Below, one piece after another: positions 33,881-49,709 of a stretch of 61,501 nucleotides of DNA. Position 1 is the stretch's first letter. Every line of letters starts with the position of its first letter. Under the pieces are notes generated by a model. It was not told the DNA's origin. It worked only from the letters and a program-made list of their open reading frames with translations, and ran no database searches. The DNA is from an uncultured Amylibacter sp. (GTDB taxonomy: Bacteria > Pseudomonadota > Alphaproteobacteria > Rhodobacterales > Rhodobacteraceae), in assembly GCA_905182285.1 (NCBI GenBank), contig CAJJAY010000008.1, positions 1 through 61,501 of the forward strand, written 5' to 3'. Made by a program: the position numbers and the translations under genes.

Positions 33881-34628
33881 ATTTGGACGATTGGATGCAA
33901 TAATATCTGGAGAAGGACAACAAGTTGTTTTAATTCATGGTGTAGGATTGCGTGCAGAAGCTTGGTCTAAACAAATAATAAACCTGAGTAAATCATATAA
34001 AACAATTGCAATTGATATCCCAGGGCATGGTGAGAGTTCAATTTTGACAGATAATTTTAAATTGAAAGAATATACAGATATAATTTCAGAATCTATTTTA
34101 ACACCTTCTATAATAATTGGTCATTCATTTGGTTCAATGATTGCTTTGGACTTAGCATTTAATTATCCTGAAAAAGTAAAATCTGTTATCTCGTTGAATG
34201 CAATTTATAAAAGAAATCAAATTTCTAAAGATGCTGTAAAAAAACGTTTTAATAATTTATCAAAACTGTCCAATTCTAACCCATCTGGCACTTTAGATAG
34301 ATGGTTTGGAAAAGATCACGCTGATATGCGCAAAAATTGTCATCAATGGTTATCCTCAACTGATCCAAGGGGATACTATAATGCTTATAAAGTATTTTCG
34401 AATAAAGACGGCCCTAGCGATACTAACTTAAAAAAATTACAATGCCCCGCATTATTCATAACGGGTTCTAAAGAACTAAATTCTACACCAAAGATGTCAG
34501 AAAATATGTCATCGTTAACTCAAAATGGAGAAGTGAAAATCTTTGATAAAGCTGCGCATATGCTGCCAATGACCCATGCAAAAGAACTTAATTTAATTTT
34601 AAATGAATTTATAAAGGATAATTCTTAA
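33852..34628 (+). CDS. Alpha/beta-fold hydrolase
   Basis: A 258-residue alpha/beta hydrolase. VLIHGVGLRAEAW is the oxyanion region, GHSFGS holds nucleophile Ser92, and AAHMLPM holds His236. At the usual acid position (family pattern TGxxDxNSTP) the sequence reads TGSKELNSTP, so Glu208 may replace Asp. In this operon it would hydrolyse an ester, enol-lactone or amide produced by the monooxygenase. It overlaps both neighbours (29 bases before, one base after). Confidence 0.85.
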   Translation: MTWTIQPRSKFGRLDAIISGEGQQVVLIHGVGLRAEAWSKQIINLSKSYKTIAIDIPGHGESSILTDNFKLKEYTDIISESILTPSIIIGHSFGSMIALDLAFNYPEKVKSVISLNAIYKRNQISKDAVKKRFNNLSKLSNSNPSGTLDRWFGKDHADMRKNCHQWLSSTDPRGYYNAYKVFSNKDGPSDTNLKKLQCPALFITGSKELNSTPKMSENMSSLTQNGEVKIFDKAAHMLPMTHAKELNLILNEFIKDNS

Positions 34629-35551
34629 TGAAAAAATTAGATCCTAAATTACTTCGCAATGCATTTGGAAAGTTTATGACTGGTGTGACAGTTGTTACTG
34701 CAGTCAAAGATGATGGAAAATATGTTGGATTTACGGCGAATTCTTTTTCATCTGTATCTTTAGATCCACCAATGCTTCTTGTTTGTCCAGGAAAATTTTT
34801 ATCAAGCTATGATACATTCTCGAAATGTGATCATTTTTCAGTAAATATTCTTTCTGAAGGTCAAGAAAAAATATCAAATATATTTGCAACTTCTGATGAA
34901 GATAGGTTTTTAAAAGTACCACATAGTCTTGATATGAATGGAGTGCCAATAATAAATGGAGCTACTGTACAATTTTCTTGTTCAACAAGAAATATAATTC
35001 CCACTGGAGATCATTGTGTATTAATTGGCCAAGTTGACGATTTCAAACTATCAGAAGAGCCAGGCTTGGGTTATGTTGGTGGTCAATATTTTAGTCTTGG
35101 CTTGGAACGTGCCGCGTTTAATAAAACAGTAAGTAATGCAATTTGTGGTGCAATTATAGAAGATGGTGAAAATATTATTCTCATAAAATCACCAGATGGA
35201 CTTCATCCACCTCAATGCAAAGCCATTGATAGAAGTAATCTGATAAAAGATTTGAATAGCACTATGATTGATCACGGTATTTCAGCAAAGCTTGGTCAAG
35301 CCTACTCTGTATTTGAAGGTGTTAAATCTAGAGAACACAGTACCTATTTTTTAGCAACTGGAAATATAATATCCCCTTCACCAGAAGTTATTTTAATCCC
35401 AATATCTCAGTTAAATGCTCAAAAATATTCATCACCAGCAATATCAAGAATGATGTCTCGCTTTTCATTAGAGGCACAATCAAGAAATTTTTCTTTGTAT
35501 TTGGGTGATGTTGAAAAAGGTTCGATACACGATACTTTGGAAAGGAATTGA
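34628..35551 (+). CDS. Flavin reductase with extra C-terminal domain
   Basis: Residues 1-165 are a flavin reductase-like FMN-binding domain (FGKFMTGVTVVTAVKDDGKYVGFTANSF, SLDPPMLLVCPGK, HFSVNILSEGQ), as in HpaC and RutF. It would supply reduced flavin to the adjacent luciferase-like monooxygenase. The last 140 residues (from NAICGAIIEDGENIILIK) are an added domain with the strand pattern of a Nudix fold but without a Nudix box, so it may bind a ligand rather than hydrolyse one. At 307 residues it is nearly double the usual size. The start is coupled to the hydrolase stop. Confidence 0.85.
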   Translation: MKKLDPKLLRNAFGKFMTGVTVVTAVKDDGKYVGFTANSFSSVSLDPPMLLVCPGKFLSSYDTFSKCDHFSVNILSEGQEKISNIFATSDEDRFLKVPHSLDMNGVPIINGATVQFSCSTRNIIPTGDHCVLIGQVDDFKLSEEPGLGYVGGQYFSLGLERAAFNKTVSNAICGAIIEDGENIILIKSPDGLHPPQCKAIDRSNLIKDLNSTMIDHGISAKLGQAYSVFEGVKSREHSTYFLATGNIISPSPEVILIPISQLNAQKYSSPAISRMMSRFSLEAQSRNFSLYLGDVEKGSIHDTLERN

Positions 35552-35555
35552 TAAA

Positions 35556-36590
35556 ATGGATTTTTCTCTTTTTGCACACATGGAAAGAATTACACCAGAT
35601 CAAAATCATGTAAATTTACGAGAAGAACTAATTCAATTAGCTAAAATAGCTGATGAAGGAGGGATGCGAGCAATCTGGACTGGTGAACACCATGGAATGG
35701 ATTTTACGATTGCACCAAATCCTTTTATTAGTTTAGTTGACCTCAGCTATCACACAAAAAATTTACGCTTAGGCACAGGAACTATTATTGCACCTTTCTG
35801 GCACCCAATTAAACTTGCCGGAGAAGCAGCTGCATCTGATTTAATTACAGGTGGTAGAATTGAACTAGGTATTGCTCGAGGAGCATATTCTTATGAATAT
35901 GAGAGACTTGTACCTGGCATGGATGCATTAGAAGCTGGTAAGAAAATGCGTGAGAGTATACCTTTGTTGCGTAAACTTTGGTCAGGAGATTGCGAGCATA
36001 GTGGCAAATACTACAATTTTCCTAAAACATCTTCAGCACCTAAACCACTTCAAAAAGATGGACCACCTATTTGGATAGCCGCACGAGATATAAATAGTCA
36101 TAAATTTGGTGTAGAAAATGGTTTCAACATTCAAGTTACGCCTCTTTGGATGGGCAATGATGAAATTGAAGATCTTATGAAAAAATTCAACGAAGCTTGT
36201 AATGACTACAAGGGGAAAAGACCAAAGATAATGCTTTTACATCATACATATGTTGGTTCTGATGAACATGATGTGCATATGGCATCAAAACAGCTTTCAA
36301 AATTTTATTGCTATTTTGGCGCATGGTTTCAAAATAAAAGACCTGTAAATCAAGGTCATATTAAAACGTTGTCACAAGATGAATTAGATGCAAATGAAAT
36401 GATGTCACCTAAAAATATGGATCGAAATTTAACTATAGGAACATCAAAGTCAGTAATAAAACAAATAAAAAAGTTTGAAGATTTAGGCTATGACGAATAT
36501 GCCTTTTGGATAGATAGTGGAATGGAATTTAAAAAGAAAAAGGAATCTTTAGAACGATTTATTAATGAAGTAATGCCAGCATTCAATTAA
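35556..36590 (+). CDS. LLM-class flavin-dependent monooxygenase
   Basis: A 344-residue bacterial luciferase-fold monooxygenase using reduced FMN and O2. AIWTGEHHGMDFTIAPNPF near residues 46-64, GTGTIIAPFWHPIKLAGEAAASDLITGGRIELGIARGAY near 86-124 and PPIWIAARD are family hallmarks. I start at MDFSLFAHMER, preceded by AAAGGAA; the upstream frame overlaps the reductase gene. With the flavin reductase it forms a two-component oxygenase. Substrate unknown; the setting suggests ring or amide oxidation. Confidence 0.9.
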   Translation: MDFSLFAHMERITPDQNHVNLREELIQLAKIADEGGMRAIWTGEHHGMDFTIAPNPFISLVDLSYHTKNLRLGTGTIIAPFWHPIKLAGEAAASDLITGGRIELGIARGAYSYEYERLVPGMDALEAGKKMRESIPLLRKLWSGDCEHSGKYYNFPKTSSAPKPLQKDGPPIWIAARDINSHKFGVENGFNIQVTPLWMGNDEIEDLMKKFNEACNDYKGKRPKIMLLHHTYVGSDEHDVHMASKQLSKFYCYFGAWFQNKRPVNQGHIKTLSQDELDANEMMSPKNMDRNLTIGTSKSVIKQIKKFEDLGYDEYAFWIDSGMEFKKKKESLERFINEVMPAFN

Positions 36591-36598
36591 GGATTATC

Positions 36599-38077
36599 AT
36601 GAAAAGAAAACCACATTATCAATTATATATAGATGGCTCCTGGGTAAGTGGAAGCACTAACCAAAAAATGGATGCACAAAATCCTGCAAACGGTGAGAAT
36701 TGGGCAACTTTTGACTGTGCATCAAAAAGTGACGTTGACCGTGCTGTGAAATCAGCCAGGCGAGCATTAACAGAAAAATCTTGGTGTAACATATCACAAA
36801 CACAACGTGGTAAATTACTTTATAAATTGGCTAACCTTATAGAAGAAAATGCTGGGATTATTGGTCAAATTGAAACTAATGATAGTGGGAAACTTTTAGC
36901 TGAAACATCCACCCAAACTGGATATGTTGCAGATTACTATCGCTATTATGCAGGGCTAGCAGATAAAATTGAGGGTTCAGTTTTACCAATAGATAAACCC
37001 GATATGCATGTATTTACAAAACGTGAACCAATTGGTGTAGTTGTAGCAGTTGTTCCATGGAATGCTCAAATGTTTTTGACAGCTACAAAACTAGGGCCAG
37101 CTTTAGCTGCAGGTTGTACTGTTATTTTAAAAGCTTCTGAAATTGCACCAACTCCTATGTTAGAATTTGCAAAACTAATAGATCAAGCTGGATTTCCACC
37201 AGGTGTCGTATCGATTATTACAGGTGATGCTGAAAACTGTTCTATTCCGTTGACAAGTCATCCCGACATAGACCGCATTGCTTTTACAGGGGGGCCTGAT
37301 ACAGCGCGTAATGTTATTAAAAATTCTTCGAATAACTTCGCTGTTACGTCATTAGAATTAGGTGGAAAATCACCAATTATAGTGTTTGAAGATGCCGATT
37401 TAGAAAGTGCTGCAAATGGCTTAATAGCAGGAAATTTCGGTGCCTCAGGCCAAAGTTGTGTTGCTGGATCACGTGGGCTAATACATAAAAATGTATTAAA
37501 AGATTTAATAAATTTAATTACTGAAAAATCAAAAAATATAAGAGTTGGTAGTCCTTTAGATCCAGATACCAATGTTGGACCTTTATGCACTAAAGCACAA
37601 ATAGATAATATTTCTAAGACTTTAAAAATAAGTAAATCTCAAGGTGCAAAAATACATTTTGGAGGTAGCCAATTAGAAAAGCCAGGTAACTATATGGAAC
37701 CTACACTTATTGAATGTATGGATTCCAATACAGAAACTTTAAAAGTAGAAATGTTTGGCCCGATAATGTCTTTACTATCATTTGATACTGAAGATGAGGC
37801 TATTATGTTTGCTAATGACTCAAAATTTGGCTTAGGATCTGGCATCTTTACTCAAAATATTGCTCGAGCTCATCGTGTTTCCTCAAAAATAAAAGCAGGA
37901 ATATGTTGGATAAATACATATCGTGCTATTTCACCAATTGCACCATTTGGTGGGTACAATCAGTCTGGTTATGGTCGTGAAGCAGGAATAGATTCAATCT
38001 ATGACTATACAAGAACTAAGACTATATGGGTTAATACATCAGACAAACCAATGGAAAATCCATTTATCATGAGATAA
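36599..38077 (+). CDS. Aldehyde dehydrogenase
   Basis: A 492-residue NAD(P)-dependent aldehyde dehydrogenase. LELGGKSPIIVF holds catalytic Glu253 and GASGQSCVAGSR holds nucleophile Cys287; VVPWNAQMFL and FTGGPDTAR line the cofactor site. It most resembles betaine-aldehyde or 5-carboxymethyl-2-hydroxymuconate semialdehyde type enzymes, but the substrate cannot be read from sequence. It has a good AAGGA site eight bases after the monooxygenase gene and is last in the operon. Confidence 0.93.
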   Translation: MKRKPHYQLYIDGSWVSGSTNQKMDAQNPANGENWATFDCASKSDVDRAVKSARRALTEKSWCNISQTQRGKLLYKLANLIEENAGIIGQIETNDSGKLLAETSTQTGYVADYYRYYAGLADKIEGSVLPIDKPDMHVFTKREPIGVVVAVVPWNAQMFLTATKLGPALAAGCTVILKASEIAPTPMLEFAKLIDQAGFPPGVVSIITGDAENCSIPLTSHPDIDRIAFTGGPDTARNVIKNSSNNFAVTSLELGGKSPIIVFEDADLESAANGLIAGNFGASGQSCVAGSRGLIHKNVLKDLINLITEKSKNIRVGSPLDPDTNVGPLCTKAQIDNISKTLKISKSQGAKIHFGGSQLEKPGNYMEPTLIECMDSNTETLKVEMFGPIMSLLSFDTEDEAIMFANDSKFGLGSGIFTQNIARAHRVSSKIKAGICWINTYRAISPIAPFGGYNQSGYGREAGIDSIYDYTRTKTIWVNTSDKPMENPFIMR

Positions 38078-38117: not shown

Positions 38118-39890
38118 TTATGTTGATACGTGACTCACATTTTCATCTGGAGAATAAATATCAAGAATATTCCAGTGTCCTGTAGTCGGTGTCGGATTAT
38201 TTATCATTGCAACATCAATAACAGTTGGCTTATTTGCTTTAATGGCACTCCTTAATGCTGGAAGTAATTCTTCTGCAGATTTAATTTTTATACCTTCAGC
38301 ACCATAAGCTTTTGCAATTTCTGCATAGTTTGGGCCATTCTTTGGCTCTGCAGCAGTTCCCGGGAATGTTGTCCCATATGTCAGGCCATAATGTGCTTTT
38401 TGTAACCCAGCAATAGTTCCAAATGCATTATTATTCATTACCAACCAAATAATTCCCAATTCTAGTTCAACTGCGGTGGCAAGCATTGCAGGGTTTTGAC
38501 CAAATCCACCATCACCAACTAAACTTAACACTACACTATCAGGTCTGGCTAACTTTGCACCAATTGCTGCAGGTGGCCCAAATCCCATTGTTGCAAAACC
38601 GCCTGGGGTAAGAATTGACCCTGGTGTTAAAATATCAAACTGTTGGCCAACACCATTTTTATTCCAACCAACATCAGTTGTTATGATCGCATCATCAGGC
38701 AAAGCAATTCTTGTGTCAGCTAGAATCCTTTCAGGCATCATCGGAAATGAATTTGAAGTAGCCATTTCAATATTACTTTTTAGAAAATCTTTTTTAAAGT
38801 TTGATATTTTTTTACACAGTTCTGGTTTATTAAATCCACCAGGATACATTTTTTTTGCTACACGCAGTAAAACACGTAAAGCCAATTTTGCATCTGCTAT
38901 TACACCAATTTCTGTTGGATAATTTCTACCAATTTCAGATGGTTCAATGTCTATATGAATAATCTTTGAACCAGGAATATTAAATGTATAGCCTGGGTAC
39001 CAACTCGAGCAATCCGCCTCTTTGAAACGAGTTCCAATAGCAAATATATAATCTGCATTTAAGCATGCATCATTGGTTAACTTTGTACCCCAAAATCCCG
39101 TCATTCCAAGAACCAATGGATTTTTGTCACTTATTGCACCTTTACCCATTAAGGAGTGTGCAACTGGTAAACCCATATGCTCTATGAACTCTTTAAGCTC
39201 CTCTGACGCGCCTGACAGTAATATGCCACCACCAACATAGCTAATTGCATTTTTTGCATTTGCCAATTTAAATACAATTTCTTTTGCTGTATCTTCGTCT
39301 AAAGATGGCTTTATAAGTGAACGTGTATTTTCTAAAATACGATCAAAAGAATGAGAAGGAATAACTTCACTAAATATATCCATTGGAACATTTACTAATA
39401 CTGGCCCTGGTTGGCCACTTTCAGCTAGATGAAATGCTTTCTCTAATATCTCTGCAATCAGGTCTGCTCTATCAACACGCCATGCACGTTTTACAAAAGG
39501 TTTATATATTTCAAATTGTGACGCATCTGAATGAAGGTTCACTTCTTGGTGTGGATGTTTGCCATAATAGTGAGTTGGTATATCACCAGCAATAACAACC
39601 ATAGGGATACAATCTAATGCAGCATTTGCAACACCAGTCGCACAATTAGTTAAACCTGGAGATAGATGAGAAAGAACAACTGAAGCTTTACCAGTGACAC
39701 GGGCATAAGCATCTGCTGCATGACTTGCAATTTGCTCATGACGTACTGTTATAAAATCAATTGGACTTTTTGATAAAGCAGCTAATACAGCTATATTTGT
39801 GTGCCCGCATAAACCAAAAACATGTTTTACTTCTCTTCGATTAAGAAAATCTACCAAATGTTCAGCGACTGTTTTGCTATTATCATCCAT
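38118..39890 (-). CDS. ThDP-dependent 2-oxo acid decarboxylase/synthase-like enzyme
   Basis: A 590-residue enzyme of the acetolactate synthase/decarboxylase superfamily. The ylide-activating Glu52 lies in VRHEQIASHAADAYAR. The central domain is at about 190-340, and the ThDP motif GDG (459-461) through NNN (486-488) is intact. FGLCGHTNIAV replaces the usual FGIPG turn, so it is not a standard acetolactate synthase, and it does not look like sulfoacetaldehyde acetyltransferase Xsc. It is last in the minus-strand cluster, overlapping the CoA-acylating aldehyde dehydrogenase by one base. Making an aldehyde for that enzyme is the natural inference. Confidence 0.8.
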   Translation of the reverse strand: MDDNSKTVAEHLVDFLNRREVKHVFGLCGHTNIAVLAALSKSPIDFITVRHEQIASHAADAYARVTGKASVVLSHLSPGLTNCATGVANAALDCIPMVVIAGDIPTHYYGKHPHQEVNLHSDASQFEIYKPFVKRAWRVDRADLIAEILEKAFHLAESGQPGPVLVNVPMDIFSEVIPSHSFDRILENTRSLIKPSLDEDTAKEIVFKLANAKNAISYVGGGILLSGASEELKEFIEHMGLPVAHSLMGKGAISDKNPLVLGMTGFWGTKLTNDACLNADYIFAIGTRFKEADCSSWYPGYTFNIPGSKIIHIDIEPSEIGRNYPTEIGVIADAKLALRVLLRVAKKMYPGGFNKPELCKKISNFKKDFLKSNIEMATSNSFPMMPERILADTRIALPDDAIITTDVGWNKNGVGQQFDILTPGSILTPGGFATMGFGPPAAIGAKLARPDSVVLSLVGDGGFGQNPAMLATAVELELGIIWLVMNNNAFGTIAGLQKAHYGLTYGTTFPGTAAEPKNGPNYAEIAKAYGAEGIKIKSAEELLPALRSAIKANKPTVIDVAMINNPTPTTGHWNILDIYSPDENVSHVST

Positions 39891-41299
39891 TACGTAACCT
39901 CATTTCTATAAAATTCTCCAAACAATTCTTTTTCAGAAGGTTTATCCTCAGCAATTGGTCGGCTAACCCAAGTATAATTCATCATATGTTTCATGGTAAC
40001 ATTTTCATTCGTAATATTGCCTCCCCAAATTCCACAACCAAGACTAGATGTCATTGGCATCCCATTGGTATATGATCCAGCATTTGCTTTTGATTGAGCT
40101 TGCCTGACCATCATTCTGCTTACTGGAGCAATCCGCGCTAAAGCATCAATATTTTTATCATCATGACTATATATTCCACAGGAGTGTCCTTTTCCTGCAG
40201 TATTATAAATTTTTCGAACAATTTCTAATGCATCGTTAAAGTCATCAAAATGATAGAGTGCCATTAATGTAGTTAGTTTTTCTTTGCTAAATTTATGTTT
40301 TGGACCAATTTTTCCTTGGTTTTCAACCATTAAGAAAACTTTATCATCTGGAATACTGAACCCAGCGAGATTTGCAATTTGTTGAGGTGGGCAAGCTATT
40401 GTTTCAAATGTACGGTTTTCATTTTCATCCCACATTATAGCTTCTAATCTACCTTTTTCTTCCTCACTGCAAAGATATCCACCTTCTAATTCTAACGCAT
40501 TTAGCATTTTTTTATAAATACTATGCTGAATAATTATATTCCCATCAGCTGAACAACCTGAACCAAAGTCGCTAGTTTTTGACATTCGAGTGTTTTTTGC
40601 CGCAATTCCAATATCTGCTGTTTCATCAATTACTATAGATGAATTTCCCGCTCCCACTCCATAAGCGGGCCGTCCAGATGAATAAGCAGCCTTAACCATT
40701 GGTTTACCTCCTGTTGCAAGTGTTAGATCACAAATTTGCATTAAATATTGAGTTAGAGGAATCGAAGGGCTCTTAATAGATTGGAACAAATCCTTAGGCG
40801 CACCAACTGCTTGGCAAGCCTTGCGCATTACTTCAACCATCTCAAATGTTGTTTTTGCAGTTCGAGGATGTGGAGAGAAAATAGCTGCATTACGTGTCTT
40901 AGCAGAATAAATACCAGTAACTGGGGGCGTTAATGCAGGATTAGTCATTGGTATTAACGATGCGATTACACCAGCTGGTTTAGCATATTTAACTAAACCT
41001 TTTTCTTTGTTAACTTCAACAATCCCAGTCGAAGGATGCCGAAGTGCATCTCTTAAAACTCCATGAATTTTAAAACGTTTACCTGGACGCCCATTTCGAT
41101 CTCCTATGCCACTCTCATCAACACCCATTTGAGCAAGTTTTGTAAATGTTTTTTCATTACCAGAAAACCATCCAATAGCTTGGGCTAATCTGTCTAATTC
41201 TTGTTGTGTATAATCCTCAACTAACGCCATTGCTGTGCGCGCACGTTCAAGCATATCAAGCGCAAGTTTGCGCTCATAGTTAGTAAGCTCTTTCACCAT
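39890..41299 (-). CDS. CoA-acylating aldehyde dehydrogenase, SauS-like
   Basis: A 469-residue member of the acylating aldehyde dehydrogenase group closest to SauS (sulfoacetaldehyde dehydrogenase, acylating) and AdhE-type domains. KIHGVLRDALRHPSTGIVE near residues 77-95, GVIASLIPMTNPALTP near 110-125, ATGGKPMVKAAYSSGRPAYGVGAGN near 195-219, and nucleophile Cys249 in DFGSGCSAD are seen. It converts an aldehyde to an acyl-CoA or the reverse. No sauT or sauU is adjacent. The ThDP enzyme follows by a TAATG overlap; the TIM-barrel gene overlaps its start by 20 bases. Confidence 0.85.
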   Translation of the reverse strand: MVKELTNYERKLALDMLERARTAMALVEDYTQQELDRLAQAIGWFSGNEKTFTKLAQMGVDESGIGDRNGRPGKRFKIHGVLRDALRHPSTGIVEVNKEKGLVKYAKPAGVIASLIPMTNPALTPPVTGIYSAKTRNAAIFSPHPRTAKTTFEMVEVMRKACQAVGAPKDLFQSIKSPSIPLTQYLMQICDLTLATGGKPMVKAAYSSGRPAYGVGAGNSSIVIDETADIGIAAKNTRMSKTSDFGSGCSADGNIIIQHSIYKKMLNALELEGGYLCSEEEKGRLEAIMWDENENRTFETIACPPQQIANLAGFSIPDDKVFLMVENQGKIGPKHKFSKEKLTTLMALYHFDDFNDALEIVRKIYNTAGKGHSCGIYSHDDKNIDALARIAPVSRMMVRQAQSKANAGSYTNGMPMTSSLGCGIWGGNITNENVTMKHMMNYTWVSRPIAEDKPSEKELFGEFYRNEVT

Positions 41300-42182
41300 G
41301 AGATATATTTTTTCCTATAATGTTATTAATTTTATGGTCACGTCTCTGCGACTTCACATCTCCAAATGTTCGCTTTGCGTGCTTCAGACATCTGCGAGCG
41401 TGTTCTTCATATCCCAGTTCATTTATTCTAGATTGATTTGGTAATTCTATTGAGTAATCAAGAGAGGGCATTCTTTCTATTATACCCCTAAAATCAATGC
41501 ATCCTTCACTAGGATATAATCGCGCATCTCTTGCTAACTGGATCATTCCTTGTTTCGTATCAGCAATACCTGGCAATGCATCTGAAATATGTAAAAAGTT
41601 TAAAAACTCGCCTGGAACATGAAGTAATTCTGCTAAATCAACACGACTTAAATGGAGGTATAATGTATCAACCAGTATTCCACCATTTGAGCAGCCTGCA
41701 GCCCGCACGATATCTAATGCCTCATCTAATGTTCTTAAGCGGGAAAAAGAAGGGAATTCTAAATCAACACTAAGCCCATATTGCAACGCAATATCACAAG
41801 TCTCGGAATAACAATCTATTAGAAAATTTCTATCAGAACGATCTTTTGTCCATGCACTCATTATCATTCGCTTTGCACCAAGATCACCACCCAGCGCTAA
41901 AGCTCTTTCAAAATTCCGCGGGTCACAATCTTCAGTAATACGTGCTAATTCAATATCTAGTACTTTAAGCTCTGTTGTAGCCAAGGCAATTTTCGTTGCT
42001 TTGATCATTTCTCTATCAATGGGAGATTCTTTAAACTCACCTGGAACATTCATAGGTATGAATCTTGGGCTAACTGCATCATAACCTGAACGCGCAGCAA
42101 TATAAATTAATTCCGGTGTAGTTGCGTTAATCAATGTTAAATGTGCCAAAGAATACAATGGGTCATGTACAGCATCAGTCAT
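41280..42182 (-). CDS. Sugar phosphate isomerase/epimerase-type TIM barrel
   Basis: A 300-residue AP-endonuclease-2 fold TIM barrel (IolE, dehydroshikimate dehydratase, xylose-isomerase-like). A full metal site is visible: Glu142 (VDLEFPS), Asp172 (ILVDTLYLH), His198 (NFLHISDA) and Glu246 (YSIELPN). It could be a dehydratase, isomerase or epimerase for a keto-sugar, cyclitol or ring acid. It sits between the citrate-synthase-like and acylating dehydrogenase genes and may supply the activity missing from the degenerate barrel of the fusion protein upstream. Confidence 0.82.
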   Translation of the reverse strand: MTDAVHDPLYSLAHLTLINATTPELIYIAARSGYDAVSPRFIPMNVPGEFKESPIDREMIKATKIALATTELKVLDIELARITEDCDPRNFERALALGGDLGAKRMIMSAWTKDRSDRNFLIDCYSETCDIALQYGLSVDLEFPSFSRLRTLDEALDIVRAAGCSNGGILVDTLYLHLSRVDLAELLHVPGEFLNFLHISDALPGIADTKQGMIQLARDARLYPSEGCIDFRGIIERMPSLDYSIELPNQSRINELGYEEHARRCLKHAKRTFGDVKSQRRDHKINNIIGKNISHGERAY

Positions 42183-42278
42183 TATGAATCACCTCAATAT
42201 ATCTGATAACACCATTAACATATTATGTATTCAAAAATCTATGATATTTTTATGTTTATCAGTTAAATTGATTTTTAT

Positions 42279-43076
42279 TTATTCTTTTGCATCATAAGTT
42301 GGTAAATATTTTATTGGCATTGGTCCCTTATTTCTTCCCCCTTGTTCGATTTGCTCCCAAGAATGGGCCAATATTCCAACACTTCGCGATAAACAGAACA
42401 AACCACGCGCCAATGGCGCTGGGAAACCTAGTTCACAAAAGATAACGGCTGTTGCACCATCAATATTCATAGGTATTTCTTTTTTTGAGCTTAGATATAA
42501 CTGGATAGCCTCTGCAATATCATAAAATTGACCAGAAATAACATTTTCTTCAGACGCATTTCTTACTAATTCCATTAATCTTGGCGCCCTTGGATCTATA
42601 GGCTTATGAAATCTATGACCAAATCCACTTATAATTTTACCATTTTTATTCTCCCAATTGCTCAATCCACCAGATAAAGCTAGATCAAATGAGGCACCAT
42701 TATTAATTCTTGATGCAATATCGTAATATAATTCAGCACATTGCTCACCTGCCCCACCATGCACATTACCCAACATGTTTATACCAGTTGCCATAGCGTT
42801 ATTAATGCCAACCCCACAAGTAGCTGCCATACGAGCAGCTGCTATTGATGGCGCTTGTGGTCCATGATCGACCCCTGCTACAAGTGCTGCCTCAAATAGT
42901 GCAGCTTGAGCTTCTGTTGGTGCCCCACCTCTTACCATCTTCCAAATCATCTGCGGAAAGGAAATATTACCTATCAAATTTTCAATTGGACTTCCTCTAA
43001 AAGAAATTTTTCCAGGTGACATATCAATAATTGATGTTCTCCACCAATCTCGAATTTCGTCAGAATCATTTATCAT
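42279..43076 (-). CDS. Short citrate synthase-like protein (citryl-CoA lyase type)
   Basis: At 265 residues it is far shorter than citrate synthase (about 430) and resembles the C-terminal-only citryl-CoA lyase-type proteins. All three catalytic residues are kept: His106 in NVHGGAG, His154 in GFGHRFHK and Asp206 in NIDGATA. DHGPQAPSIAAARMAATCG and LARGLFCLSRSVGILAHSWEQ are further family marks. A cleavage of a 3-hydroxy-3-carboxyacyl-CoA to acetyl-CoA and a 2-oxo acid is the expected chemistry. It lies 11 bases after the HPPD-fusion gene. Confidence 0.82.
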   Translation of the reverse strand: MINDSDEIRDWWRTSIIDMSPGKISFRGSPIENLIGNISFPQMIWKMVRGGAPTEAQAALFEAALVAGVDHGPQAPSIAAARMAATCGVGINNAMATGINMLGNVHGGAGEQCAELYYDIASRINNGASFDLALSGGLSNWENKNGKIISGFGHRFHKPIDPRAPRLMELVRNASEENVISGQFYDIAEAIQLYLSSKKEIPMNIDGATAVIFCELGFPAPLARGLFCLSRSVGILAHSWEQIEQGGRNKGPMPIKYLPTYDAKE

Positions 43077-43087
43077 ACTGAGCTTCC

Positions 43088-44854
43088 TTACTGAAATTTT
43101 TGTAATGCAATTTGAGATGCTAAACGAACAGATGCATTACGCGCTCCATAACCTGAATAACCATTTTTTCTTTGTACAATTTCAAAAAAGAAACCATCAA
43201 ATAAGTTTTCACTGTAAAGTTGGAAATATTCACCTAATCCATCACAATCATATAAAATATTATGTTCTTTTAGTTGATCTATAAATACATCGTTTAAATT
43301 AAATTTATTTTTAGTTTTTTCATAATAATCAATTGAAATACATAAACCTTTGAAACCAGTATCTGATAATAGTTTAGCACTTTCAAATATATCATCAGTA
43401 GAAAAAGCCAAATGTTGAACACCAGCTCCAAACTTGTCTTTAACAAAAGACCCAGCAAAGGTATCAAGGTCTTCTGTTGCATTTAAATTAAGTCTCACGT
43501 CTCCTTCAGGACTTTCGATAGCTTGGCTTAATACTATTCCAGAGGGATCGCTTACATTTATAATTGAAGATTTATCCATTTCAAAAGTTGAAATATAATA
43601 TAACAACCAATCTTGCATTTCATCATATTTCATTGTTTGCGCAATATGGTCTACACGACGCAACCCTACAGGTTGAATAAAATTTTCATCATTTTTTGAT
43701 GCAAATTCAATATCCCAAACCCTATGTAAATCAGATTTTTCATCTATAAAGTGTACTATGCTACCACCAACCCCACGAATAGCCGGAATATTTAACTCAC
43801 CCAACCCTACATTTTGGACAAAAGATTTTGTACCTAAAGCTTTTGCTCTAGATACAGTCTCATCTGCATTTTGGACCCGTAGACCCATATCACATACCAT
43901 TGGTCCATGAGCCATAAACCTGTCATGTGCATATCCATCTTTTTCTTTATTAACTACAATATTGATAGCTCCTTGCCGCCAAAGAACTACATCTTTATTT
44001 AGGTGTATTCGTTCTTGGCGGAACGCCATACTTCGTAATATTTTGGATAATTCATAAGAACTCCGTTCATCAACAGCAAATTCAATAAATTCAATTCCAG
44101 TGGCTGGCACTCGGGATGCAATGTCAGGTATTTTAAACCTTGCTAATGGTTCTTCAATTGATACTTCATTCAAAATATTTAACAAAGATCTATATGCACT
44201 TACTGCTCCTGGATGTACTTTGCTTTTTATCGAAACACACCAGATGCCCTCATACCCAGATCGAGTTAATATTTTAATAAAACCCTGTAAATTCAAATCT
44301 CCAAGCAATGGTAATAGATTTCCATTTATTCCATCAGCTAATTGAACAAAAAATAATTTTGAAATTTCTAAATTACGCAACCTAGCTGGTCGTGAACCAT
44401 CTCCTAGAACATTTGAACTATTCAAAGCTATGCCAAGATTTGGATGGTTTATTTTTTTAATAAATTTGAAAGTTTCATCTTCTCGTTCACGAGAGGGTTG
44501 TAAAGCAATCTTTAGGTTTCCAATTAAATCAAGATCTGGCAATATAATTTTTTGAGATTTTGTAACTTTTAATATTAAAATTGGAGCATTAATCAAAATT
44601 GAGAAGCTCGTTATATCTGATATATTTTTATGTGAGTATATTTCTTCATGAAAATTGAATGCACCAATATTTAAATTAGTATTCTTGACCATATTTATGA
44701 TTAATTTTGGGTCATCTTTTAATTCTAAAATATCAATACTTTCAATTTCAACTAAATTAAAATCCGAAAGTGAAATTGAATTTAATTTCTCTTCAAAATT
44801 ACCAGCAACAGAATTAGTAGATATACAATTCACAAAATCAGCCTTGATATCCAA
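43088..44854 (-). CDS. TIM-barrel/4-hydroxyphenylpyruvate dioxygenase-like fusion
   Basis: A 588-residue two-domain protein with the layout of QuiC (dehydroshikimate dehydratase fused to an HPPD-like domain). Residues 1-235 are the TIM barrel; aligned to QuiC, ligands Glu, Asp, Gln, Glu become Gln119, Asn145, Gln171 and Ser208, so three of four are lost and dehydratase activity is doubtful. Residues 245-588 are two VOC modules with the full HPPD iron triad His403 (VDHIA), His481 (VQHLAF) and Glu558 (FFFEIVQ). The start is TTG inside the dctM end, with a weak AAGAG site. The oxygenase substrate is unknown. Confidence 0.82.
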   Translation of the reverse strand: MDIKADFVNCISTNSVAGNFEEKLNSISLSDFNLVEIESIDILELKDDPKLIINMVKNTNLNIGAFNFHEEIYSHKNISDITSFSILINAPILILKVTKSQKIILPDLDLIGNLKIALQPSREREDETFKFIKKINHPNLGIALNSSNVLGDGSRPARLRNLEISKLFFVQLADGINGNLLPLLGDLNLQGFIKILTRSGYEGIWCVSIKSKVHPGAVSAYRSLLNILNEVSIEEPLARFKIPDIASRVPATGIEFIEFAVDERSSYELSKILRSMAFRQERIHLNKDVVLWRQGAINIVVNKEKDGYAHDRFMAHGPMVCDMGLRVQNADETVSRAKALGTKSFVQNVGLGELNIPAIRGVGGSIVHFIDEKSDLHRVWDIEFASKNDENFIQPVGLRRVDHIAQTMKYDEMQDWLLYYISTFEMDKSSIINVSDPSGIVLSQAIESPEGDVRLNLNATEDLDTFAGSFVKDKFGAGVQHLAFSTDDIFESAKLLSDTGFKGLCISIDYYEKTKNKFNLNDVFIDQLKEHNILYDCDGLGEYFQLYSENLFDGFFFEIVQRKNGYSGYGARNASVRLASQIALQKFQ

Positions 44855-46133
44855 AGACTCTTGGTAACCACAAAACTAAATCAGGGGTTAAAAGCATGAC
44901 AAGAAGTGCAGCAATTAAGACAATTAAAAATGCCCAAATTTCAGATATTATTTCACGAAGAGGAATATCAGTAACTGCATTTATTACAAATAAAAGTATT
45001 CCATAGGGTGGCGTTATTAACCCAATCATTGAATTTACAACTACCAAAACCCCAAAATGAACTAAATCTATACCCAATACTTCACATGTTGGAATGAACA
45101 AAGGAACTATAACTAAAATAATAGTTGTCGCGTCTAATATACAGCCTAATGCTAAGATTAAAACATTAACAGTAATCAAAAAAATGATTGGATTTACATC
45201 AGTTCCTTCCAAAAGCACTGCAATTGATTGAGGAATTTGCTCAGAAATAACTATAAAATTTAGAATAAAAGCTCCACCAATTACGATCCCAACTGATGCA
45301 GATGATCGAGCGCTTTCTACAAATACATTAAAAAGTGCTCTAAATGATAGAGCTCTATAAAATAATCCAGCAAGTAATAATGCATAAAATGCTGCAATTG
45401 CTGCAGCTTCAGTTGGTGTCGTTACCCCACCGTAGATGCCATATAATAATATCACAGGCATCAACAAAGCAGGAAAAGCATTTGCTGTTTTTCGCGGAAG
45501 TTCTCTCAAAGGAATTGGATCTTCCATTGCAAATCCACGCTTACCTGCCATATAATAATTCATTAGCATTAATACAAAGCCCATAATCAAACCTGGCAAG
45601 ATACCTGCTAAGAAAAGGGATCCAATCGATGCTTTTGAGACTAAAGCATACAAAACCATTGGAATAGAAGGAGGAATTATTGGCCCTATAGTTGCAGAGG
45701 CAGCAGTGATAGCAGCAGCATACCCTCTACTATAGCGATTATCTTTAGTCATCATTTCAATAATAATTTTTCCAATTCCTGCAGCATCCGCAACAGCAGA
45801 TCCTGACATACCAGAGAAAATTAAAGAAGCGACGACATTTACATGACCCAGTCCACCTTTAAAACGTCCAACAGCAGCAACACAGAAATTTAATAATCGA
45901 TCAGTTATTGTACCAGCATTCATAATATTGGCTGCTACAATGAATAAAGGCACTGCAATTAGAATGGTGCTTAAATAAAACCCTTGGAGAATTTTCTCGC
46001 CCGCTAGCGCAATATCAAGACCAGAAAACCCTAAATAAACTACAGAAGCTAACATTATTGAATAGCCAATCGGAGTTCCAATTCCAGCTAAAAAAAACAA
46101 TGTTATTAAACATGAAGCAAGTTCAAAACTCAT
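44838..46133 (-). CDS. TRAP transporter large permease DctM
   Basis: A 431-residue, roughly 12-helix subunit that couples sodium flow to solute uptake. GIGTPIGYSIMLASVVYLGF, MSGSAVADAAGIGKI, ATIGPIIPPSIPMVLYAL near residues 158-175 and GLITPPYGILLFVINAVT are family signatures. It overlaps dctQ by four bases and the following fusion gene by 17 bases, so the transporter and the enzymes are one operon. Confidence 0.95.
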   Translation of the reverse strand: MSFELASCLITLFFLAGIGTPIGYSIMLASVVYLGFSGLDIALAGEKILQGFYLSTILIAVPLFIVAANIMNAGTITDRLLNFCVAAVGRFKGGLGHVNVVASLIFSGMSGSAVADAAGIGKIIIEMMTKDNRYSRGYAAAITAASATIGPIIPPSIPMVLYALVSKASIGSLFLAGILPGLIMGFVLMLMNYYMAGKRGFAMEDPIPLRELPRKTANAFPALLMPVILLYGIYGGVTTPTEAAAIAAFYALLLAGLFYRALSFRALFNVFVESARSSASVGIVIGGAFILNFIVISEQIPQSIAVLLEGTDVNPIIFLITVNVLILALGCILDATTIILVIVPLFIPTCEVLGIDLVHFGVLVVVNSMIGLITPPYGILLFVINAVTDIPLREIISEIWAFLIVLIAALLVMLLTPDLVLWLPRVFGYQG

Positions 46134-46675
46134 AACAAATCTTTCTTTTTTAAAGACTGCTCTTCAAGAGTAATTTCAAGTTCTGTTTTAGGTGGACCCT
46201 GACGAAATATATTTATAATCATCCAAGCATATCTTGCTCCAACAGCAATCATAAAAACAGCATATATAGAGAACACATCCCGCATAGGGATTTTTGAACC
46301 TGAAAATGGGTTTTTAACAGTTGATGTTTTTCGTATTTTCATCCAGTCAATATAATCCCATGTTGGTAAATATGAATAAATCATTCCAATCAAGATTGCA
46401 GACGCACTTATTATAGCCATAATTTTACGAATACGAATTGGCATTGCAAGATAAACGATATCAAATTTTACATGGTCTGTTTCTTTAACAACAAATGCAC
46501 AACTAAAGAATATTAGCCACACCCATAGAATTCCAATGAGTTCTAGTGTCCAACCAGCTGGTGTAAAAAAATATCTTAATAAAATTTGTAAAAGAAAAGT
46601 TAAAAAAATTGCTGCCAGTAATCCGCCAGCAATAGCATTGGTAATATGGGAGAACGCTTTTATGATTTTAGACAT
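46130..46675 (-). CDS. TRAP transporter small permease DctQ
   Basis: A 181-residue four-helix subunit of the tripartite carrier. FFTPAGWTLELIGILWVWLIFFSCAFVVKETDHVKFDIV near residues 36-74 is the typical DctQ core, with Glu and Trp in helix 2. It has a GGAGAA ribosome site and overlaps dctM. It binds DctM in the inner membrane. Confidence 0.93.
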   Translation of the reverse strand: MSKIIKAFSHITNAIAGGLLAAIFLTFLLQILLRYFFTPAGWTLELIGILWVWLIFFSCAFVVKETDHVKFDIVYLAMPIRIRKIMAIISASAILIGMIYSYLPTWDYIDWMKIRKTSTVKNPFSGSKIPMRDVFSIYAVFMIAVGARYAWMIINIFRQGPPKTELEITLEEQSLKKKDLL

Positions 46676-46703
46676 TTAGTGTTCTCCCAAAAATTGCTTT
46701 GGA

Positions 46704-47714
46704 TTATTTACCCAGTGCGTTTACTTTTTCTAGTACTCCTGCAGGCCAAGTTGCTGCAAATTCACTATCTAAATACATCGACTGAACTTGATTACGGAAT
46801 GCAGCTGTATCTGGTTCATATACTTCCATTCCCTGCTCTTCTAAGAATGCCACCAAGCTTCCCTCTAACTCTAACTGTATCTTACGACCAGATGCTGCTG
46901 CTGCATCAGCGGCAACTTGAACTGCAATTTGCTGTTCTGCACTCATATCATTAAAAGTTTTTGCACTTATTGCGATATAGTTTAAATCAACAAGGTGAGA
47001 AGTCAAAACAATTTGTTTCGTAACTTCATAGAATTTTTTGTCTACAACAGTTGGTAATGGATTATCTTGCCCATCAACAGCACCTGTTGATAATGCAGTG
47101 TATACTTCAGAAAAAGCCATTGGTGTAGGAGCCGCACCTAGTGCTTTGCCTAGAAACTGCCAAGCATCTGTGCCAGGCATACGTAAGTTAACACCTGCAA
47201 GATCTGAAGGCTTATTCACTGTAAGTTCATCTTTTGACTGTCTTAAGTTTACTTGACGTCTACCCAGATACATAACTGATAAAAGTTTAACACCTAATTC
47301 ATCTTCAACTTTTGCTTTAAACGGATCCATCAAAGGATCGTTAAAAACTGCTACTTGGTGATCAGCATCTTGATGAACATAACCCGCTGTAAAAATTGAA
47401 AATTCTGGAAAGAATTGTGCTAATTCTTGTGCAGATGTTATAGACATTTCTAAATTACCACGACTAATAGCATCAAGTTCAGTGCCTTGTGCAAATATCG
47501 TACTGTTGTAGCTAGGCTCAAAACTAGCAAATGTTCCAACTAGTGGAGCGAAAACGTTTGCCATAGCCACAGATCTTTGATCTGTTTCTGTACCTGATGT
47601 AGCCATCCGCAATTGTACTTTAGAATGCCCGTCAGCTAATGCTGGCATACTAGTTGATACACTAGCAGCCATCAAAGCAGCTACTGCAATCCGACGTGTA
47701 AAGTTAACTTTCAT
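46704..47714 (-). CDS. TRAP transporter solute-binding protein DctP
   Basis: A 336-residue periplasmic binding protein with a signal peptide (basic TRR start, cut near PALADG). The conserved Arg in VNLRMPGTDAW near residue 167 usually clamps a substrate carboxylate, and VYTALSTGAVDGQDNPLPTV near 206-225 is the DctP signature. So the imported compound is likely an organic acid; its identity cannot be read. GGGAGGA is a strong ribosome site. It leads dctPQM. Confidence 0.93.
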   Translation of the reverse strand: MKVNFTRRIAVAALMAASVSTSMPALADGHSKVQLRMATSGTETDQRSVAMANVFAPLVGTFASFEPSYNSTIFAQGTELDAISRGNLEMSITSAQELAQFFPEFSIFTAGYVHQDADHQVAVFNDPLMDPFKAKVEDELGVKLLSVMYLGRRQVNLRQSKDELTVNKPSDLAGVNLRMPGTDAWQFLGKALGAAPTPMAFSEVYTALSTGAVDGQDNPLPTVVDKKFYEVTKQIVLTSHLVDLNYIAISAKTFNDMSAEQQIAVQVAADAAAASGRKIQLELEGSLVAFLEEQGMEVYEPDTAAFRNQVQSMYLDSEFAATWPAGVLEKVNALGK

Positions 47715-47817
47715 TTTTGTCCTCCCAGACTGTTAAAACCACCTCTATGGCAGTGTTTCTATTTAAGCTATATCATAGCTTTGTTAAAATACAATATATT
47801 TTACATAATATATGATA

Positions 47818-48891
47818 TTATTGTGCTGCAACTCCATTTGTTGAAATTTTTAAAGAGCATTCTACCTCAACAAGTGTTCTAGTTTCAGCAGCTTTTTGAA
47901 TTGCCTCAATAACTAAAAGTGTTTTTAATCCGTCCAAGCCCGTAACCAACGCATCCGCTTTTCCACGTATCACATCTGCAAAATTAGTAATTTGATTTAT
48001 TAAAGGATCAGATGCCTCACGAGGTGATATTGTTCCAGAAATTGGATTCCACCAATTTTTTTCATCTTTATGTGTCCAAACTGTTAAATCTGGAACTGAG
48101 AGAGATCCTTCCGAGCCACCAATTAAATAACAAGATTCCGATGTCATTGGATAAATAGGATATTCTCTGGATGTTAATTCCCAACTCCAAGGAGAAACGA
48201 TACTATCTGAGACTGTGACAGTTCCGATTATTCCATTTTCAAAACATAATACAGCTGCTGCTAAATCTTCATTATCAAAACCTCTAATTGAGGGTGCCAT
48301 TTGTGCTTGAACAGAAATTATTTCACCACAAAAAAACCTCATAAGATCTATATCATGCACTAAATTAACTGAAATTGGTCCTGCCCCTTTTTTTGTCCTC
48401 CAAGGTGCAATATCAAAATATTCATCTGGTTTATAAAACCAACAAGTAGCCTGTAGTGCTCGAATATTTCCTATAGCACCATCTAAAATTAATTCTTTGG
48501 CCTTCTGAATAAGAGGATTATGTCTACGATGATGACCAACCAACAATGATACTCCAGAGATTTCTGCAGCATCAGTTAATATTTTTGCCTGAACTGCAGA
48601 AGTAGCTAAAGGCTTTTCGACTAGTACAGGGCATCCTTTCTCTATACATTCAAGTCCTTGGGATACATGTAATGGCGTAGGCGTAGAAAGAATAACTCCA
48701 TCTGGTGAGATCAATAAAAACATTTTTTCTAAAGTATCAAAGCATGGCACATCCATTGCTTTTATGTCTTCGGATGGATTTGGTTCAACTATAGCAACTA
48801 GCACTACATCCTTTTGCTTTGCGATTGCATTTATATGCCGTTGTCCAACTAGACCAGCGCCAACAATTGCAAGCTTTATAATATCAGTCAT
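47818..48891 (-). CDS. Gfo/Idh/MocA-family oxidoreductase
   Basis: About 357 residues. The NAD(P) motif AIVGAGLVGQRH is at the N terminus, VEKPLATS carries the family Lys, and SVNLVHDIDLMRFFCG holds the His of the catalytic region. Members oxidise sugars, cyclitols or sugar acids. I start at the ATG with AAGG six bases upstream; a GTG two codons earlier is the alternative. It is the first gene of the catabolic cluster, 103 bases ahead of dctP and divergent from the GntR gene. Confidence 0.88.
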   Translation of the reverse strand: MTDIIKLAIVGAGLVGQRHINAIAKQKDVVLVAIVEPNPSEDIKAMDVPCFDTLEKMFLLISPDGVILSTPTPLHVSQGLECIEKGCPVLVEKPLATSAVQAKILTDAAEISGVSLLVGHHRRHNPLIQKAKELILDGAIGNIRALQATCWFYKPDEYFDIAPWRTKKGAGPISVNLVHDIDLMRFFCGEIISVQAQMAPSIRGFDNEDLAAAVLCFENGIIGTVTVSDSIVSPWSWELTSREYPIYPMTSESCYLIGGSEGSLSVPDLTVWTHKDEKNWWNPISGTISPREASDPLINQITNFADVIRGKADALVTGLDGLKTLLVIEAIQKAAETRTLVEVECSLKISTNGVAAQ

Positions 48892-48948
48892 CTGCACCCT
48901 TGGAGTAAATTTATTTAGTAAAACTACAATAAAGAATTTAGATTCGCA

Positions 48949-49008
48949 ATAATATATGATATTTTATAAATAATCATTTATTATACGTAGTTGAGAAGTA
49001 TCATATAA
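48949..49008. promoter_or_regulatory. Candidate GntR operator region
   Basis: In the divergent gap, ATATATGATAT (from 48952) and GTATCATATAA (from 48998) form a spaced inverted repeat. The same TATGATATT core recurs upstream of dctP (47811-47819) and upstream of the TIM-barrel gene (42240-42248). In AT-rich DNA a few chance copies are expected, so this is only suggestive. Confidence 0.35.
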
Positions 49009-49049
49009 TTGTGTAATAAGGGAAATATAACTGATTATTTGAGAAATAT

Positions 49050-49709
49050 ATGACAAGAATTATTAATACTGTTGGCTCCAGTACATACGAGCGCATTAAA
49101 AAAGATATTATTTATGGGAAACTCGCACCAGGCAGTAAATTAAAACTTGATGGCCTCAAGGAACAATATGACGCAAGCGTTTCAACCCTAAGAGAGACAT
49201 TAAACCGCTTATCTAGCGATGGGTTTGTAGAAGCTGCTGAACAACGTGGCTTTTTTGTCCGCTCAGTGTCTCGTGAAGATTTAGCTGAGATAGCTAATCT
49301 AAGAATACTATTAGAATGTTCAGCTCTCAAAACCTCGATAGAAAATGGTGATGCTGACTGGGAAGGCAATCTGGTAGCCGCGCATCATAAATTAAGATTA
49401 ATTGAAGAAAAAATGCTTTCTGGAGACTTTTCCCAAAAAGAAACATGGAAGAGATATGATTGGGAGTTTCACAAAACCTCAATTGAAGCATGTAATTCAC
49501 AAAACTTAATGTCACTACATGCCATTATTTTTGACAAATACTTACGTTATCAGATGTTGGTTATAACAGATCGTGGTGAAGACGCTGCTCTAGAACACCA
49601 ACAAATATTTAAAGCTGCGCTTTCAAGAAATACTATAGAAGCTACAGAAGCTTTAGAAATTCATATTCGTAAAGGTTTAGAACATACGCTAGCAAATATG
49701 AAAATTTGA
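49050..49709 (+). CDS. GntR-family regulator (FadR subfamily, FCD domain)
   Basis: A 219-residue regulator. The winged HTH is at residues 9-70 (STYERIKKDIIYGKLAPGSKL, YDASVSTLRETLNRLSSDGFV), and an FCD effector domain follows with likely metal ligands in YDWEFHKTS, EHQQIF and IHIRKG. It diverges from the Gfo/Idh-TRAP-catabolic cluster and is its probable repressor, released by the transported acid or a product. Self-regulation from the shared gap is likely. Confidence 0.9.
   Translation: MTRIINTVGSSTYERIKKDIIYGKLAPGSKLKLDGLKEQYDASVSTLRETLNRLSSDGFVEAAEQRGFFVRSVSREDLAEIANLRILLECSALKTSIENGDADWEGNLVAAHHKLRLIEEKMLSGDFSQKETWKRYDWEFHKTSIEACNSQNLMSLHAIIFDKYLRYQMLVITDRGEDAALEHQQIFKAALSRNTIEATEALEIHIRKGLEHTLANMKI

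Follow-up and report, generated by a model that had tools for sequence, protein, structure and literature searches.

The window analysed here, a stretch of 61,501 nucleotides from contig CAJJAY010000008.1 of an uncultured Amylibacter sp. (a 1.9 Mb genome assembly, 84% complete), carries a nine-gene minus-strand operon that in its general class is probably devoted to the catabolism of a hydroaromatic acid. The substrate is probably quinate and/or shikimate; the fuller reading, in which it is degraded with a logic like that of the inositol pathway, appears evenly balanced on the gene comparisons presented below. In transcription order (48897 to 38118), the operon encodes a Gfo/Idh/MocA dehydrogenase (47818..48897), the solute-binding protein and the small and large permeases of a tripartite ATP-independent periplasmic (TRAP) transporter (dctP, 46704..47714; dctQ, 46130..46675; dctM, 44838..46133), a QuiC-type fusion of a TIM-barrel half with a 4-hydroxyphenylpyruvate dioxygenase (HPPD)-type half (43088..44854), an enzyme of the citryl-coenzyme A (CoA) lyase type (42279..43076), a separate TIM barrel (41280..42182), a SauS-like CoA-acylating aldehyde dehydrogenase assigned by family models (39890..41299), and a thiamine diphosphate (ThDP) enzyme that resembles acetolactate synthase, as judged from family matches and 80 relatives (38118..39890). 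The intergenic gaps of -20 to +103 bp suggest a single operon, and family models identify a GntR/FCD regulator encoded divergently on the plus strand (49050..49709). A sequence-only reading of this DNA had described nine coupled minus-strand genes and a divergent GntR gene, and all ten were found at the positions and in the families that it gave. Comparison with other genomes further provided the conservation and order of this gene set, its association with quinate/shikimate enzymes, and the replacement of its lyase and acyl-CoA enzymes in distant relatives.

The gene set recurs in many genomes, whole or in part, as the sequence-only reading had proposed to verify, and is therefore more than a chance assembly. 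Of 196 genomes of the order, 56 have a match above the cut-off of the citryl-CoA lyase model NF004864. These matches lie at 64 places including the window, and 60 of the other 63 places were compared (one of two copies in G081, one of two in G140 and the copy in G079 were left out; loci and genomes are designated by L and G numbers). The cluster is present at 13 of these 60 loci, 11 of them whole; the remaining two, L061 and L065, lack the TIM barrel, dehydrogenase and ThDP genes, which occur together with an HpaI-type aldolase at a second locus of the same genomes (G003 and G028). That these split genomes keep both halves counts in favor of the quinate/shikimate reading. No ThDP relative was detected at E 1e-100 in three genomes picked for having only other copies of the lyase (G021, G044, G080). 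Both split clusters (L061, 7572-9485; L065, 10588-12519) have a CitMHS-family transporter after the lyase, its family having been tested in L061. An alignment scan with the ThDP enzyme gave 556 relatives, the best 80 of which are the 80 loci considered here, five of them each sharing a genome with one of the 13 cluster loci above. They span strain HTCC2255 (87%), which is the nearest named relative of the window genome, Amylibacter, Ruegeria, Roseibium/Labrenzia, Aliiroseovarius, Octadecabacter, Planktomarina, SAR324, an Acidimicrobiia metagenome-assembled genome (MAG), UASB270 and others. A phylum-wide profile scan at E 1e-200 detected the ThDP enzyme in 7 of 397 genomes, all from the family of the window, in a sample rich in that family.

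According to ThDP identity, the 80 loci were divided into a close group (at least 75%, 62 loci) and a distant group (below 75%, 18 loci); the per-gene counts that follow depend on tblastn identity thresholds set by us, and contig ends truncate some of the loci. The close group contains the dehydrogenase at 60 loci, the TIM barrel at 57, the citryl-CoA lyase at 53, the HPPD half at 51, an AroE-type gene at 19, AroQ at two and the HpaI-type aldolase at nine, with none having a 3-hydroxy-3-methylglutaryl (HMG)-CoA-lyase type. For the distant group, the corresponding counts are 18 for the dehydrogenase, 16 for the TIM barrel, three for the citryl-CoA lyase, 14 for the HMG-CoA-lyase type, 14 for the HPPD half, nine for AroE and eight for AroQ. 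The separate TIM barrel is thereby found at 73 of the 80 loci. At L040 (5425-8453), L046 and L053, and at Ruegeria loci including L104-L110, two additional Gfo/Idh dehydrogenase genes are inserted between the lyase and the TIM barrel, together with a gene for a 219-aa protein that matches no Pfam or NCBIfam model.

The association with quinate/shikimate genes is apparent from gene order. An AroE-type match is inserted between the fusion and the lyase, on the same strand and less than 60 bp from both, at 20 loci (17 of the 80 and 3 of the set of 60), and all five of the AroE-type proteins of L044, L063, L178, L166 and L199 scored above NF009201. In the control comparison, 3 of the 13 cluster loci have AroE inside the operon, vs none of the 47 lyase loci outside the cluster set (Fisher p 0.008). 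AroQ lies no more than 0.8 kb from a core gene, and on its strand, at 6 of the 80 loci (L154, L164, L165, L167, L168, L169), which include SAR324, the Acidimicrobiia MAG, UASB270 and three more; three AroQ proteins from two of these six loci pass TIGR01088, and the AroD of Azoarcus passes TIGR01093. Overall, AroE or AroQ was identified in the stretch of 30 of the 65 loci whose upstream sequence spans 7 kb or more. At the SAR324 locus L154 (12019-12942), the ThDP gene is followed by a tandem pair of type II 3-dehydroquinate dehydratases, both above TIGR01088, and one of them may have a new role. At L035, near a lyase locus of the TctABC type, an AroE-like match (34%) lies 33 bp from a Gfo/Idh match.

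The lyase was found to be replaced by another type at some loci. The window lyase passes NF004864 clearly (417.8 bits, cut-off 261), and its sequence contains GNVHGG, GFGHRFH and MNIDGAT, which we take to be the His/His/Asp motifs of citrate-synthase-type enzymes, in agreement with the earlier description of a lyase with an intact triad. An HMG-CoA-lyase type is present instead at 14 loci, which make up 14 of the 18 in the distant group; two of these proteins were tested and both exceed NF004283 (295.3 and 304.8 bits vs 246). The gene immediately precedes the TIM barrel, dehydrogenase and ThDP genes at 12 of the 14 loci (L169 and L172 differ), which is the side occupied by the citryl-CoA lyase in the close group, there partly with three intervening genes. 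The two kinds occur together at none of the 80 loci, and 62 of the 65 loci that have 7 kb or more of upstream sequence hold a lyase, with no lyase within the stretch at L142, L146 and L167. A ThDP tree was built from 72 rows (84 minus near-copies); its bootstrap had not settled. On this tree the HMG-type label needs 3 changes, compared to a mean of 13.0 for shuffled labels, and none of 500 shuffles was as low; Azoarcus, with a citryl-CoA lyase, falls on a long branch inside the HMG-type group. Both kinds of lyase cleave tertiary β-hydroxyacyl-CoA. It is conceivable, at slightly less than even weight, that the citrate-synthase-like and HMG-CoA-lyase-like enzymes are interchangeable homocitryl-CoA lyases on a non-aromatic, O2-independent route that leads from quinate or shikimate via a cyclic 1,2-dione and homocitrate semialdehyde to acetyl-CoA and 2-oxoglutarate.

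The acyl-CoA step is also exchanged. The annotated plasmid pAZKH of Azoarcus sp. KH32C carries genes for IclR, an HPPD-type protein, a TIM barrel, a CoA transferase, citryl-CoA lyase, the ThDP enzyme (65.5%), shikimate dehydrogenase and aroD, and an acylating dehydrogenase was not found in that stretch. Records from Nonomuraea and Streptomyces, which have no annotation in these stretches (ThDP 48-50%), show a lyase, a CoA transferase and an ordinary aldehyde dehydrogenase directly before the ThDP gene, as well as a pyrroloquinoline quinone dehydrogenase under the cut-offs of its models; an AroE-type gene is present in the Streptomyces record too. The CoA transferase thus appears to stand in for the acylating enzyme in Azoarcus and the two actinomycetes. 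This exchange leaves a robust reading, in which an aldehyde derived by the ThDP enzyme is converted to a CoA ester and then cleaved by the lyase, and the same generic chain in the sequence-only reading is well supported by the two replacements and by the near-constant presence of a lyase. The ThDP enzyme itself has three TPP domains, and no NCBIfam cut-off was reached among the best 25 of its 52 matched models. The AlphaFold predictions for the separate TIM barrel (mean predicted local distance difference test score, pLDDT, 63) and for the ThDP enzyme (pLDDT 49) were of too low quality to be used. At L166, L169 and L198, long open frames could suggest dehydrogenase-ThDP fusions but were rejected as such; both of the frames that were traced, those of L166 and L198, leave the frame of the dehydrogenase upstream.

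The two TIM barrels of the operon differ in the state of their active sites. We presume that the active-site residues of QuiC have a metal-binding role. In the separate TIM barrel, E142, D172 and E246 are found in all 83 aligned rows and H198 in 79, with Gln in the other four, so that the intact TIM barrel noted earlier does retain QuiC/IolI-type metal-binding residues. The fusion is a whole-length relative of QuiC1 (5HMQ, 512 bits), scoring 319.2 bits with the dehydroshikimate dehydratase model NF042435 (cut-off 1200, missed). A study of these enzymes gives Glu134, Asp165, Gln191 and Glu239 as the QuiC active-site residues (PMC7442255). At the matching positions of the fusion, both Glu are missing from all 65 close-group rows, window included, and the Asp from 64 of them; the Gln remains in 53. 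The 14 distant fusions include six with all four ligands (L171, L173, L174, L176, L178, L181) and five with Glu, His and Glu and no Asp (L164, L165, L169, L175, L179). As judged from these residues, the dehydratase half of the close-group fusion is dead, and the separate TIM protein, with its metal ligands kept, could have taken over a dehydration. The His/His/Glu iron triad of the HPPD half (H403, H481 and E558 in the window) is intact in all 65 close-group rows and in 12 of the 14 distant rows, the exceptions being L172, with Gln for the second His, and L178, which is cut. The same study reports no detected activity of the C-terminal HPPD domain of QsuB on protocatechuate in vitro and calls the role of this domain in QuiC/QsuB unknown (PMC7442255). 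In Azoarcus KH32C (L197, 7958-9661), the QuiC halves are separate genes; the TIM half is QuiC-like (156 bits) and the HPPD half is short (274 aa), its second His seeming by eye to be missing.

We infer every reaction of the following route, to which we give a little less than even credence as a whole. Quinate or shikimate would be taken up by the TRAP transporter, and quinate would be oxidized to 3-dehydroquinate by the Gfo/Idh protein, a candidate quinate dehydrogenase, or by an AroE-type dehydrogenase; shikimate would reach 3-dehydroquinate through dehydroshikimate and the reversible AroQ/AroD reaction. The separate TIM barrel, as a proposed 3-dehydroquinate dehydratase, would remove the C4 hydrogen and the C3 hydroxyl, yielding 1-hydroxy-3,4-dioxocyclohexane-1-carboxylate. 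Since this QuiC-type dehydration would act on dehydroquinate rather than dehydroshikimate, the C1 hydroxyl would stay and a cyclic 1,2-dione would form. The ThDP enzyme, proposed as a ring hydrolase (or decarboxylase), would hydrolyze the bond between the two keto groups to give homocitrate semialdehyde, with the aldehyde at the old C5; ThDP hydrolysis of cyclic 1,2-diones is the reaction of IolD. The acylating dehydrogenase would then form homocitryl-CoA, and the proposed (homo)citryl-CoA lyase would release acetyl-CoA and 2-oxoglutarate. The net conversion would be quinate + 2 NAD(P)+ + CoA to acetyl-CoA + 2-oxoglutarate, with no CO2 lost and no O2 needed. The route would be mass-balanced, passing from quinate (C7H12O6) through dehydroquinate (C7H10O6), the dione (C7H8O5) and the aldehyde (C7H10O6) to homocitrate (C7H10O7), which equals acetate (C2H4O2) plus 2-oxoglutarate (C5H6O5). 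That both kinds of lyase cleave tertiary alcohols speaks for this route, as C1 carries the sole tertiary alcohol of quinate and dehydroquinate, and an acid with its own CoA transferase and lyase would fit homocitrate better than citrate. No relevant open-licence literature was found on the gene set or on a non-aromatic route, and either may thus have appeared in print elsewhere.

Among known systems, inositol catabolism (IolG, IolE, IolD, IolA) is the closest in logic, as it likewise combines a Gfo/Idh dehydrogenase, a TIM-barrel dehydratase/isomerase, a ThDP enzyme and a CoA-acylating dehydrogenase in one operon and proceeds by dehydration to a cyclic dione that is then hydrolyzed. However, the window proteins belong to other sequence families: the Gfo/Idh dehydrogenase misses the IolG model (126.8 bits, cut-off 355), the TIM barrel has no IolE match, IolD is not among the best 25 of the 52 models for the ThDP enzyme, and the dehydrogenase has no IolA-type model. 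Moreover, the proposed route ends in a citrate-synthase-like lyase and is joined by quinate/shikimate enzymes. The protocatechuate route of quinate and shikimate (quinate dehydrogenase, AroQ/AroD, QuiC/QsuB and the β-ketoadipate pathway) shares with many of the clusters an AroE-type enzyme, a dehydroquinate dehydratase and a QuiC-type fusion; it differs in that the dehydratase half of the close-group fusions is apparently dead, the window genome lacks PF00775, and the clusters add ThDP, acyl-CoA and lyase steps. In the Rhodobacteraceae, operons with citryl-CoA lyase and a class III CoA transferase use the same lyase family (57-70% identical to that of the window), and a class III CoA transferase at least 45% identical to that of L057 is present at 40 of the 47 other lyase loci vs none of the 13 cluster loci, whereas these operons have no close ThDP, TIM or acylating dehydrogenase gene. 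Many of them (L034, L042, L057, L074, L082, L085 and others) also have a TctABC-type transporter and two-component genes, which we named from sequence, and possibly represent a tricarboxylate utilization operon. Cyclohexane-1,2-dione hydrolase of Azoarcus performs a ThDP-dependent ring hydrolysis and would share this reaction type with the window enzyme.

Several observations weigh against a quinate/shikimate route. AroE is absent from the stretch at 43 of the 62 close-group loci and AroQ at 60 of the 62, some being cut by contig ends, and the mere presence of AroE or AroQ does not separate cluster loci (3 of 13) from other lyase loci (3 of 47; p 0.11). The evidence is weak at four of the ten AroQ loci, where the gene is on the opposite strand (L115) or lies 1.8 kb (L172), 5.3 kb (L175) or 7.5 kb (L166) away. 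A single AroE is present in the window genome and likewise in HTCC2255, so that the first dehydrogenase there is a guess, and the protein that the Azoarcus record names shikimate dehydrogenase is below every NCBIfam cut-off (best 161 vs 252). The separate TIM barrel reaches only 25 bits with the QuiC model and has IolI as its best PDB match (38 bits), and the nearest known type to the ThDP enzyme is acetolactate synthase (TIGR00118, 410.3 bits, under the cut-off of 538.35). The proposed route leaves the HPPD half without a role despite its conservation (65 of 80 loci) and has no need of the HpaI-type aldolase at 9 of 80 loci. L167, presumably from an anaerobic bacterium, lacks the TIM barrel and the lyase in its stretch, and its genome has a LigB-type match. 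Ring-cleavage genes are also frequent among the 14 cluster genomes, with PF00775 (intradiol) in 11 and PF02900 (LigB-type) in five; in six further genomes, PF00775 was detected in three and PF02900 in four, UASB270 having PF02900 only. Both families are present in G198 and G201.

The sequence-only reading had derived the substrate from aromatic ring cleavage. In that scenario, 4-carboxy-4-hydroxy-2-oxoadipate, formed by protocatechuate 4,5-cleavage or by ring cleavage through the HPPD half, would lose CO2 on the ThDP enzyme to give citrate semialdehyde, which would be converted via citryl-CoA to acetyl-CoA and oxaloacetate; we regard this scenario as unlikely. Its mass balance is sound, the window lyase belongs to the citryl-CoA family, the Gfo/Idh family includes PmdC (57.8 bits), and quinate can reach protocatechuate via QuiC; the six distant fusions with all four metal ligands, the retained iron triad, and the occurrence of PF02900 and of LigK (TIGR02798, above its cut-off in 1 of the 14 cluster genomes) also agree with it. 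However, neither PF02900 nor PF00775 was detected in the window genome (itself only 84% complete), in HTCC2255 or in Cognatishimia (G161 = G199), VOC-type extradiol dioxygenases not having been searched for, and PF00775 is also absent from G010. PF04909, which we take to be the family of LigI/LigJ, is absent from the window genome and only marginal in HTCC2255 (25.8 bits), with a clear match in Cognatishimia, and the window genome gives only 34 bits with the LigK model (cut-off 304.5). An aromatic origin is further opposed by the loss of both Glu in every close-group fusion, by the inactivity on protocatechuate stated for the HPPD domain of QsuB in the study cited above, and by a dedicated CoA transferase and lyase being pointless were citrate the product; it is thus not supported, and quinate/shikimate genes co-occur instead.

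A variant with the same substrate and ring hydrolysis would replace the dehydration with a second dehydrogenation, giving acetyl-CoA and 4-hydroxy-2-oxoglutarate, which an HpaI-type aldolase would split into pyruvate and glyoxylate. This is unlikely, as it would leave the widespread TIM barrel without a job and the aldolase occurs at few loci and not in the window operon, even though it follows the ThDP gene in both split operons and many Ruegeria-type clusters have extra Gfo/Idh genes. Very unlikely is a 2-keto-3-deoxy sugar acid such as 3-deoxy-D-manno-octulosonate (KDO), which would undergo ThDP decarboxylation, acylation and cleavage to acetyl-CoA and an aldose. The dctP protein shares 220 of 306 aligned residues (72%) with 4PF6, which we take to be a KDO-bound structure and which thus also weighs against quinate, and it resembles sialic-acid binders as well; KDO in its pyranose form and quinate share a C(OH)(COOH)-CH2-CHOH motif, so that the binding could be a mimic. 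A KDO pathway would leave the AroE, AroQ/AroD and QuiC-type genes unexplained, and both lyase families yield keto products from tertiary alcohols. Sulfonate catabolism through SauS and Xsc-like enzymes is extremely unlikely. SauS (NF047625) is the best model for the dehydrogenase, but its 427 bits are under the cut-off of 600, as are the 293 bits of the ThDP enzyme under the 620 of PRK07525 (sulfoacetaldehyde acetyltransferase), and a sulfonate pathway was rejected on these cut-offs; the neighboring genes are those of quinate/shikimate metabolism instead.

On the plus strand beside the operon (33281-38077), five genes encode a 199-aa protein without a match, a PcaD-like alpha/beta hydrolase, a flavin reductase, a luciferase-like monooxygenase and a protein like betaine aldehyde dehydrogenase. 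All of their products are below NCBIfam cut-offs, and the group, which ends 40 bp from the ThDP gene, resembles another catabolic operon.

In the textbook account, bacteria degrade quinate and shikimate via protocatechuate and O2-dependent ring cleavage. If the hydroaromatic route proposed here is true, the ring would instead be opened before aromatization, which would explain the use of quinate or shikimate in genomes without both of the searched ring-cleavage families, such as HTCC2255. The degradation of hydroaromatic acids by fermenting bacteria, reportedly an old question (Brune and Schink, 1992), would become directly testable. In addition, many marine TRAP clusters would gain a substrate and a widespread family of citryl-CoA lyases a function, and the HPPD domain of QuiC/QsuB would become easier to approach. 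The route would constitute a homocitrate-cleaving catabolism that is homocitrate synthesis in reverse.

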